Of a stretch of 64,000 nucleotides of DNA, positions 41,710 to 63,883 are shown piece after piece. Below the pieces are notes generated by a model. The model was not told the origin of the DNA. It worked only from the letters and a program-made list of their open reading frames with translations, and searched no databases. Every line of letters begins with the position of its first letter. Position 1 is the stretch's first letter. The position numbers were made by a program, and so were the translations under genes. This DNA is from Jiangella sp. DSM 45060 (GTDB lineage Bacteria; Actinomycetota; Actinomycetes; Jiangellales; Jiangellaceae), in assembly GCF_900105175.1 (NCBI RefSeq), contig NZ_LT629771.1:6654622-6718621 (forward strand), given 5' to 3'.

Positions 41710-42261
41710 ATGACCGACATCGCTGAGCGCTACCGCCGGCTGGCCGCCACGCTGACCGGCCGCATCGAGTCCGTCCCGGCCGACCGCTGGGAGTCGCCGT
41801 CGCCGTGCGAGGGCTGGACCACCCGCGACGTCGTCGCCCACCTCGTCGACTGGCACCGCGACGTCGCGAAGCTCGGCGGCCTGACGCTGCCCGACGGCCC
41901 GCCCGTCGCCGACGACCCCGTCGCCGCCTGGACACACACCCGCGACGCCATGCAGGACCTCCTCGACGACCCGGAGCGCGCGAACACCCCGTACGAGGGC
42001 ATGTTCGGCCCGACCACGGTGGCCGCGACGGCCGACCAGTTCCTCGGCTTCGACCTCGTCGTGCACGGCTGGGACATCGCCCGCGGCGCCGGCCTCGACG
42101 ACACCATCCCGCCCGAGGACGTCGCCGACCTGCTGCCCATGGTCGAGAAGCTGGGCGACAACCTGCGCCGCCCCGGCGTCTGCGGCCCCGAGGTCCCCGT
42201 GCCCGACGACGCCGACGACCAGACCAAGCTGCTCGGCCTCCTCGGCCGCGACGCCACCTGA
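41710..42261 (+). CDS. TIGR03086 DinB-like protein (maleylpyruvate isomerase family)
   Basis: This 183-residue four-helix protein has the metal/thiol site pattern VVAHLVDWHRD near residues 45-55 and LVVHGWDIARGAG near 116-128. Both are typical of mycothiol-dependent maleylpyruvate isomerase-like (TIGR03086) proteins. Members often use mycothiol in detoxification; the substrate is not known. It ends 11 nt before repeat element A, whose long hairpin could terminate its transcript. Confidence 0.9.
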   Translation: MTDIAERYRRLAATLTGRIESVPADRWESPSPCEGWTTRDVVAHLVDWHRDVAKLGGLTLPDGPPVADDPVAAWTHTRDAMQDLLDDPERANTPYEGMFGPTTVAATADQFLGFDLVVHGWDIARGAGLDDTIPPEDVADLLPMVEKLGDNLRRPGVCGPEVPVPDDADDQTKLLGLLGRDAT

Positions 42262-42272
42262 CGGCCAACCGA

Positions 42273-42366
42273 GCGGGGTTCGGGGGGATGCCGGCAGGGG
42301 TAGGCTGCGGGCGTCCGAGCGAGGAACGAGCGAGGCGGGCGGGGCCGGCATCCCCCCGAACCCCGC
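42273..42366 (+). repeat. Repeat element A: 74-nt core inside a 23-bp hairpin
   Basis: Perfect 23-bp arms (42273-42295 and 42344-42366) enclose a 48-nt loop containing the 8-bp direct repeat GAGCGAGG twice (GAGCGAGGAACGAGCGAGG). The core 42283-42356 recurs in inverted orientation at 63803-63876 with 72 of 74 identical bases. The outer part of the stem (GCGGGGTTCG) differs from the other copy yet is fully self-complementary. It lies just after a stop codon in transcript orientation, 41 nt before the next gene. Confidence 0.85.
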
Positions 42367-42406: not shown

Positions 42407-42811
42407 ATGATCTCCGTCGAGCTGGCCCGGAAGCTGCGCGAGAAGGGGCTGCGCTGGGAGCCGCGTCCCGGCGACCGGTTCGTCATCGCCGACCGCGGCA
42501 TGGACGACGAGGTGTTCGTGGTCTCCCACATGGTCGTCGACGTGCACGAGTTCCCCAGCGGCGGGCGGGTGCTGGGCTTCAACGGCACGGTCGAGTGGGC
42601 GCTGGACAGCGTCGAGCAGGAGGCCGCGCTCTGGCTGCCGAGCGAGGAACGGCTGCGCGAGCTGCTGGGCGGCGCGTTCACCGGGCTGCGCCGGACGGAC
42701 GACGGCTACCGGCTGACGCTCGACGTCGGCGGGCGGCGGGTCGAGGTCGACGACGAGCGGGCCGAGGAGGCGTACGGCAAGGCGTTGCTGTACCTCGCCG
42801 CGGGCGATTGA
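42407..42811 (+). CDS. Conserved hypothetical protein
   Basis: This 134-residue protein starts MISVELARKLREKGLRWEP and contains LWLPSEERLRELLG and a C-terminal VEVDDERAEEAYGKALLYLA. Similar small proteins are widespread in actinomycetes without a known function; some databases label them as pilus-assembly-like, which this sequence does not support. The start ATG at 42407 is 41 nt after repeat element A. The next gene, the PTS IIC, starts 63 nt downstream. Confidence 0.8.
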   Translation: MISVELARKLREKGLRWEPRPGDRFVIADRGMDDEVFVVSHMVVDVHEFPSGGRVLGFNGTVEWALDSVEQEAALWLPSEERLRELLGGAFTGLRRTDDGYRLTLDVGGRRVEVDDERAEEAYGKALLYLAAGD

Positions 42812-62580: not shown

Positions 62581-63777
62581 CTATGCGCGTCCGACCTGGA
62601 GAGGCAGCACACCGCCGTGGTGGAGGCGGACGTCGTCGGGGGCGCCGTCGGCCAGGCGCAGGTCCGGCAGCTCGCGGGCGACCGCCTCGAGCATGAGCCG
62701 GGCCTCCAGTCGGCCCAGCGAGGCGCCCAGGCAGAAGTGGCTCCCGTACCCGAACGCGATGTGCCCGGCGACGTCGGCGCGGTGCACGTCGAACACGTCC
62801 GGGTCGGAGAAGACCTCGGGGTCGCGGTTGGCGCCCCACAGCGACAGGCCGACCCGCTCGAACGCCGGGATCGTCCCGCCGGCGAGGTCCAGCTCGCGGA
62901 ACGTGAACCGCGGCGGCACGATTTCGACCGGCCCGCGGAAGCGCAACGTCTCCTCGACGACGGCACTCGCCAGCGCCGGGTCGGCGCGCAGGTCGTCCCA
63001 CTGCTCGGGATGCGTGAGCAGCAGCCGCAGCGCGTTCGCGATGACGTCGACCGTCGTCTCCTGGCCGGCGATGAGCAGCAGCTGCACCATCGCGACCAGC
63101 TCGTCGCGGTCCAGGGCGTCACCCTGCGTCTCCAGCGCGACCAGCTCGGAGATCAGGTCGTCGCGCGGTTCGGCCCGGCGCCGCGCGGCCAGCTCGTCGA
63201 CGTACGCGGCGAACGCCAACGTGGCCGAGCCGTCGTGGTCGGACGCGGAGACGATGGTCGCCGACCAGTCGCGGAACCGGGCGCGATCCTCGTCCGGCAC
63301 GCCGACCAGCTGGGCGATGACGTTGACGGGCAGCGGGTCGGCGAGGTCGGTCACGGCGTCGAACCGGCCCAGCCGGCGCACGTGCCCGACGAGCTCGGCC
63401 GCGACGCCGGCGATCCAGTCCTCCAGCCGGGCCACCGTGCGGGCGGTGAACGCGGTGCTGACCAGCCGCCGCAGCCGGGTGTGGTCGGGCGGGTCCAGGG
63501 CGATGAGCTGCCGTGACGAGATGCGCTCGGTCTCGCTGGGCGGGTACGGCGACGGCGACAGGTCCGGCTCCTGGTGCTTGTGCACCTCGTGGCCGATGTC
63601 CGGATGCTGCAGGCCGGCCAGCACGTCGGCGTGCCGGGCGACGATCCAGAACCGGTTGCCGGCCGGGTCGTACTGCGGGACCGGCGTGCCGGCGGCGCGC
63701 ACGCGGGCGTAGAAGGCGTGCGGGTCGCGCCGGGTCTCGGGCTCCCACAGCTCCATCGGCCTGAAGTCGTCGATCAC
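62581..63777 (-). CDS. Cytochrome P450
   Basis: This 398-residue haem monooxygenase has the I-helix AGQETTVDVI near residue 235, the ExxR motif in EETLRFRGPVEI near 273 and the haem-Cys loop FGYGSHFCLGASLGRLEARL near 345. A soluble bacterial class I P450 of this length needs ferredoxin partners, none of which is adjacent. Substrate is unknown. The GTG start at 63777 has a GGAGGA ribosome site (63786-63791). Repeat element B begins about 5 nt upstream of that site. Confidence 0.95.
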   Translation of the reverse strand: MIDDFRPMELWEPETRRDPHAFYARVRAAGTPVPQYDPAGNRFWIVARHADVLAGLQHPDIGHEVHKHQEPDLSPSPYPPSETERISSRQLIALDPPDHTRLRRLVSTAFTARTVARLEDWIAGVAAELVGHVRRLGRFDAVTDLADPLPVNVIAQLVGVPDEDRARFRDWSATIVSASDHDGSATLAFAAYVDELAARRRAEPRDDLISELVALETQGDALDRDELVAMVQLLLIAGQETTVDVIANALRLLLTHPEQWDDLRADPALASAVVEETLRFRGPVEIVPPRFTFRELDLAGGTIPAFERVGLSLWGANRDPEVFSDPDVFDVHRADVAGHIAFGYGSHFCLGASLGRLEARLMLEAVARELPDLRLADGAPDDVRLHHGGVLPLQVGRA

Positions 63778-63795: not shown

Positions 63796-63883
63796 GGAGG
63801 GTGGGGGATGCCGGCCCCGCCCGCCTCGCTCGTTCCTCGCTCGGACGCCCGCAGCCTACCCGTGCCGGCGTCCCCCACCCTCC
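63796..63883 (-). repeat. Repeat element B: inverted copy of the 74-nt element
   Basis: Arms 63796-63815 and 63864-63883 pair over 20 bp with one T/G position, around a 48-nt loop the same size as in element A. The core 63803-63876 is the reverse complement of 42283-42356, with 72 of 74 bases identical. The outer stem (GGAGGGT with ACCCTCC) is unlike element A's but self-complementary. It lies between the terminator of the preceding gene and the P450 start, in the same orientation relative to transcription as copy A. Confidence 0.85.

Follow-up and report, generated by a model that had tools for sequence, protein, structure and literature searches.

Two copies in one window

What is a hairpin that occurs twice within 64,000 nucleotides of Jiangella sp. 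DSM 45060 (the whole stretch analysed, hereafter the window), with a nearly identical core and an outer stem of different sequence each time? In copy A (42273 to 42366, plus strand), the 5' arm of the stem P1 covers 42273 to 42295 (GCGGGGTTCG as outer and GGGGGATGCCGGC as inner part) and the 3' arm 42344 to 42366, both delimited by pairing and covariation. Between the arms lie the left junction strand AGGGGTAGGCTGCGGGCGT (42296 to 42314, from alignments A1 and A2), a proposed inner hairpin P2 (42315 to 42335, CC-GA-GC-GA-G-GAA-C-GA-GC-GA-GG, with inferred tandem G.A pairs and a GAA loop) and the right junction strand CGGGCGGG (42336 to 42343, from the alignments). Copy B (63796 to 63883) lies on the minus strand. 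Its 74-nt core of inner P1, junction and P2 (63803 to 63876) matches that of copy A at 72 of 74 positions, and its outer P1 arms, GGAGGGT (5' arm, 63877 to 63883) and ACCCTCC (3' arm, 63796 to 63802), are recognised by their self-complementarity. When the sequence was re-checked, the core, its 72/74 identity, its inverted orientation and the 48-nt loop were all recovered as the initial annotation had described them, as were the outer stems, which differ in letters and are self-complementary in each copy. RNA folding compared with shuffles gave z = -6.6 for copy A and z = -3.1 for copy B.

Both copies had also been said to share their orientation relative to transcription and to follow a gene end. 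They are indeed both sense and lie between co-directional genes. Copy A sits 3' of a gene with an MDMPI_N domain (41710 to 42261, Pfam). For copy B, a minus-strand gene ends upstream and a cytochrome P450 gene begins downstream (62581 to 63777, minus strand). The 134-aa gene 3' of copy A (42407 to 42811) has no Pfam match; its start is conserved beside an MDMPI_N-type gene in 11 aligned relatives.

A recent segmental duplication of one terminator would account for the 72/74 identity. This explanation is already refuted, since the outer stems and the flanks differ between the two copies and the genome holds 23 matches to a covariance model of the element. The pair is thus, as proposed, not just a recent duplication.

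A lineage-specific family

The notion of only two copies genome-wide fails in the same way. In addition to the 23 covariance-model matches, a blastn search of the 7,485,957-bp genome (G000) with the core returned 26 matches, part of them partial. In the genus, the covariance model R1 gave 93 matches at E <= 0.01 in 11 of 12 genomes, 23 of them from G000 and none from G002, the sole genus member without any match. In the order, 19 of 22 genomes contain matches at E <= 0.001. An exact-pattern scan of 84,980 species, which covers one loop type and from which records close to the window's genome may be missing, matched 36 stretches. Of these, 35 belong to Jiangellaceae (Jiangella, Haloactinopolyspora and Phytoactinopolyspora) and one to an Actinomycetes MAG. 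Copies A and B are members of a lineage-specific family of hairpins of about 90 to 110 nt, found in a group of soil bacteria.

A phage or plasmid origin was considered and rejected: the exact pattern had no match in viral contigs, and blastn found none in plasmid or phage records. Within G000 the copies are unevenly spread, 9 of 23 falling inside about 350 kb (G000:C1:6367834-6718497; simulated P about 0.0002); the record's first half contains 4 of the 23. At five loci (L109, L166, L170, L178 and L179), tandem runs of 5' arm and loop without a 3' arm stand ahead of a complete copy.

Stem P1 and the junction

The element consists of a stem P1, whose sequence is almost free, a junction of two conserved strands and the inner hairpin P2. 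Sequence is conserved in the left junction strand (about AGGGTNNGGNCGGGCRT), in the right one (about CGGGCGRG) and at the tip of P2. For a census of stems, 106 of the 133 unique copies were scored, 27 being left out as partial or weak. P1 is 15-34 bp long (median 23) and the loops measure 37-64 nt (median 48). The 2488 P1 pairs of this census comprise 2414 Watson-Crick pairs, 42 GU pairs and 32 mismatches.

The pairing of P1 is maintained through change on both sides. In an alignment of 45 copies, 93.8% of the cells are paired and 18 of 23 pairs show two-sided change; the covariation amounts to 0.503 versus 0.128 in shuffled alignments, a value reached by none of 500 shuffles. In a selection of 34 out of 64 sequences, which covers several genera, two-sided change was found in all 14 modelled P1 pairs. 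The proposal that the palindromes form a dispersed, structured family whose stems covary is correct. The covarying helices are accompanied by conserved unpaired positions, and the covariation could also be mutational in cause. Some non-orthologous copies have arm motifs in common.

It was also considered whether the outer stem is a common free-standing hairpin. This was rejected, as GCCGGTGGG-N0-30-CCCACCGGC is present in 10 of the 12 genomes of the genus and only 0 to 3 times in any one of them. Another hairpin of 32-34 nt, GCCGGTGGGCCGG...CCGGCCCACCGGC, is present once per genome in seven genus genomes (L055, L056, L058, L060, L061, L063 and L064).

A proposed inner hairpin, P2

In the loop of copy A, a direct repeat GAGCGAGG-N3-GAGCGAGG had been noted. 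The letters are correct, but comparison with other copies favours a different reading: the repeat is probably P2 itself, (CGAG)2-GAA-(CGAG)2 with tandem G.A pairs. When 5'-CGAG-3' is set against 5'-CGAG-3', two Watson-Crick pairs enclose two G.A pairs. In other copies the place of P2 is taken by a Watson-Crick helix (GGGGG/CCCCC, GAAGGGC/GCCCTTC, GAAAGGC/GCCTTTC), and the pair that closes the GNA loop is G-C in some copies and C-G in others. Alignment columns 42-58 and 43-57 hold a standard pair in only 5 of 31 and 7 of 32 sequences, respectively, the others being non-standard and, judged by eye, mainly G.A and A.G. Folding programs give P2 for both Watson-Crick types that were folded. They do not predict it for the G.A types, copies A and B among them; for copy A and the L098 type, folding as RNA and as DNA led to another inner fold.

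A second actinobacterial family

A second covariance model (R2) was searched against 393 genomes of the class under strict filters. It matched 18 of 22 members of the window's family and, among the 371 others, a single genome (G207). At E <= 0.01, matches were then found in four of the 41 genomes of the family of G207, namely in G395 (8), G207 (5), G411 (1) and G402 (1). The build of the element, about GGGYGTGGYCGGGCGT - P2 - CGGGCGRG, recurs in seven of the eight sequences from G395; the L393 locus is off-centre from its match and stands outside this comparison. In the G395 copies, P1 is rather alike and P2 varies. The seven sequences and a diverged copy from G014 (eight in total) show two-sided change in 6 of 7 P2 pairs. 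The G402 match lacks a long stem and is probably due to chance. According to a home-made gene caller, the 14 loci of this family comprise three inside a called gene, seven antisense tails, three convergent gaps and one sense tail (that of G402). Diverged copies of the same build are hence present in a second actinobacterial family.

Gene context

The gene context was determined with a home-made codon-usage caller, for which the 133 copies were merged into 74 flank groups (at least one of which joins two neighbouring sites) and the majority call was taken per group. In 64 of these groups the site is cleanly intergenic and both neighbouring genes were called, nine are flagged inside a called gene and one lacks a neighbour. 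The clean intergenic groups consist of 24 convergent gaps, 22 sense tails, 17 antisense tails and one divergent gap, so that 63 of 64 adjoin at least one gene 3' end.

This position is what would be expected of a host-functional structured RNA or a two-way terminator or mRNA-end element, in which the hairpin and a protein-bound loop are under selection. It is the main rival explanation, and it is also favoured by a junction that is kept while the helices covary, as in structured RNAs, and by sites that are kept across several species with paired change. It is rather unlikely nevertheless. Sense and antisense tails are nearly balanced (22 versus 17), although one strand only can form the proposed P2; no T-tract follows the stem; copies occur in frame inside genes in both orientations; and the genus member G002 has no match at all. 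For a plain terminator family, which had been put forward as one possibility, the fit is poor for the same kind of reasons. Intrinsic terminators are likewise G+C-rich hairpins near stop codons, but the stem is much longer here, the long loop is conserved, there are intragenic copies in frame, and a T-run after the stem is absent, with T in 5-14 of 105 copies at each of six positions.

Nine open frames running through the element were picked for comparison. All nine contain Pfam domains, and in six of the proteins domains lie on both sides of the element. These are HydA-HydB fusions (L098 and L273 in sense, L099 in antisense orientation), an FHA-FtsK protein (L103, antisense), a permease-ATPase fusion (L125, antisense) and a BTAD/NB-ARC/TPR regulator (L038). 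For a MTHFR (L177), two stretches were matched, with the position shown for one; in the relatives G019 and G016, this site is filled by a short native peptide. In an ABC ATPase (L112) and an acetyltransferase (L107) the domain lies downstream of the element only, which suggests a location near the N-terminus, the start of the frame being inferred. Across several genera the element occupies one and the same HydA-HydB linker: in G012, G013 and G019 in one orientation, in G018 in the opposite orientation and in G014 as a diverged form. This linker contains other sequences in G017, G020 and G021 and a weak, putative model match in G016.

Changes at orthologous sites

The copies are dispersed at non-homologous sites and vary in presence or absence between species at orthologous ones. 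A full copy is absent at the site of copy A in all 11 relatives: G001, with flanks 97% identical, has a short gap, and partial arms are left in G010 and G006. Copy B is shared by G000 and G010, and the eight other genomes compared lack it. By flank identity, G001 and G009 are closer to G000, yet both lack copy B. The pattern therefore requires several losses, recombination or repeated gain, and losses or recombination matter as much as gains. At two sites in G001 the arms are fused and the loop is missing, which fits a deletion between repeated GCCGGC. Some sites are old and have been kept, one of them in seven genomes.

According to a further explanation, a loop module inserts into the tips of pre-existing terminator hairpins, so that each copy has the stem of a different host hairpin. 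This would account for arms that pair perfectly yet are unrelated and for the location near the ends of genes, and at L013 most relatives do carry an ordinary hairpin. The stem of these relatives is unlike the arms, however, and copy B comes and goes together with its arms. Moreover, no hairpin of those arms is present in the relatives at three sites (MTHFR, acetyltransferase and ABC ATPase), where any hairpins are weaker and unrelated, and the arm motifs common to some non-orthologous copies also speak against it. Tip insertion is largely refuted for the intragenic copies and improbable as a general explanation.

To follow the arms themselves, 48 orthologous pairs with both flanks more than 75% identical were compared; the pairs share history and are not independent. 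An ungapped count, in which an arm pair was scored as changed if either base had changed and which overstates two-sided change, gave 798 arm pairs the same, 204 two-sided, 25 one-sided and 16 broken. With paired indels allowed, 900 were the same, 88 two-sided, 20 one-sided and 11 broken, with 77 paired indels. Of the 88 two-sided changes, 51 cannot proceed via G-U and need a mismatch intermediate. By the ungapped count, mean loop identity in these pairs was 0.89 and identical arm pairs made up 0.76. Where flanks are at least 94% alike, 100 arm pairs are the same, three changed on two sides and one on one side, so the arms are not unusually fast. Between paralogs little of the arm sequence is left. 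The 14 copies of G020 have loops that are 84% alike and an arm-pair identity of 45% (40% when shuffled), and for the 21 copies of G000 the values are 95% and 66% (53% when shuffled). Arms are thus recognisable between orthologs, where they change in step on both sides, and near-unrelated between paralogs, and the loops change more slowly.

From the compensated change in the outer stems, selection for a hairpin had been concluded. The change itself is real, but this conclusion is not safe. In PMC8794818, hairpin-templated (template-switch) replication is argued to be able to make and keep paired stems via two-sided changes, so the two-sided change in P1 could stem from selection or from such replication. 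The two-sided changes were not found to be clustered, with 9 adjacent versus 8.5 expected, which leaves multi-base template switches without direct support. The process is presented there as one that mutates RNA genes, and not as the upkeep of a dispersed repeat family (PMC8794818).

At some sites other palindromes were seen. At sites occupied by the element in G020, long hairpins of another kind are present in G017 and G018 (L310, L312 and L317). Two of them measure 22 and 24 bp by script and one about 26 bp by eye, and such gaps might attract or tolerate several palindrome families. A second dispersed palindrome of G020 (GGCACGTTGGGTACACG...CGTGTATCCAACGTGCC type) stands beside two element copies, L108 and L110 (query positions 207-279 and 1316-1385), and about ten further places in G020 match it.

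Relation to known repeats

Families of Rickettsia palindromic elements (RPE) keep the sequence of the element. In Jiangellaceae, a different phylum, almost every paralog has a stem of its own, and it is mainly the junction and P2 that are kept. The likeness lies elsewhere: according to PMC10969869, RPE are palindromic, of similar size, and found in frame inside unrelated genes and also between genes. In-frame intragenic insertion, an RPE trait, is also seen here, in both orientations.

REP and REPIN sequences also occur in many copies, mostly downstream of genes, with a preference for convergent and co-directional gaps and with some intragenic copies, according to PMC3733652. For the GTAG and CGTC families, the stem length is given there as 5-13 bp and the loop length as 2-20 nt (PMC3733652), far below the 15-34 bp and 37-64 nt found here. 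The Y1 transposase (TnpA-REP/RAYT, PF01797) was found in none of the 22 genomes of the order, with 5 of 14 control genomes positive. No GTAG or CGTC tag is present at the palindrome end, where the outer bases vary; within the loops, away from the ends, these letters are found in 56 and 62 of 106 copies, respectively. A REPIN as such, which had been suggested, does not fit, given the missing Y1 transposase and the sizes of stem and loop.

With bacterial MITEs (ERIC, RUP and others) the element shares that it is small, palindromic, dispersed and without a gene of its own. An inverted repeat is present at its ends, but the sequence of this repeat is not conserved between paralogs. A flush target repeat of at least 5 nt was found at 7 of 105 copies, where 3.4 were expected and 56 of 1000 shuffles had as many, so that no clear target duplication is seen. 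Copy B is flanked by a 7-nt repeat, CCGGAGG, which contains the Shine-Dalgarno-like GGAGG. In the strict sense, the suggested MITE could not be substantiated.

In attC sites the conserved part is located at the base of the stem. An attC-like recombination site, formed by folded single-strand DNA with a free stem and used by a putative recombinase, would share the pairing-only stem, the strand-specific structure and the position after genes. The conserved part here is at the apex, however, and such a site is very improbable.

Rfam gave no match above the gathering score in the window. In 10 loci searched with E up to 5, only sub-gathering matches were returned apart from a cobalamin riboswitch, and some of these are microRNA-type models over or near the element. 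The riboswitch itself (82 bits; L113:1814-1997, minus strand) lies near an element copy in G020. Searches of an open-access library turned up no described bacterial repeat family that combines a nearly fixed tip with an almost freely changing paired stem, and no title listed there names the present family.

Spread and upkeep of the element

The best reading is that of a palindromic interspersed element that works like REP or RPE yet is classed with neither. With a probability of roughly 0.55, we consider it to be an element with a free P1, a conserved junction and P2 that spreads as a selfish or semi-selfish hairpin and is recognised by its structure. Recognition would rest on the junction and P2, because the outer ends have little common sequence. 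New copies would lodge where harm is least, in gene tails and linkers. Thereafter the arms may drift and yet stay paired, through hairpin-templated (template-switch) synthesis, through selection or through both, and the junction and P2 would be constrained because a putative mover or binder recognises them. Next to a gene end, the element may act incidentally as a two-way transcript end or as an mRNA-protecting hairpin.

The in-frame copies, which are still paired inside genes, and the lack of a strand bias weigh towards a cause at the DNA level. Old sites that have been kept and the constrained loop count against selfish spread, as host function would give the same. A bolder proposal can be made only tentatively, namely that the element represents an actinobacterial class of structured nucleic acid, either RNA or folded single-strand DNA, that is mobile and defined by its architecture alone. 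Here both helices would be free and the fixed two-strand junction would serve as signal, the arms would be rewritten by hairpin-templated replication, non-Y1 machinery would read the shape and not the terminal sequence, and peptide linkers would be added to proteins. The unclustered changes and the arms that are not unusually fast slightly lower its probability.

The many dispersed copies with one loop and independently changed stems, some of them in coding sequence, form a natural data set on the origin and upkeep of long, near-perfect hairpins, on which selection versus hairpin-templated replication becomes testable. The element also cautions that covariation alone is no proof of RNA function. 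With it, an actinobacterial lineage joins those whose palindromic elements give rise to new stretches of protein.
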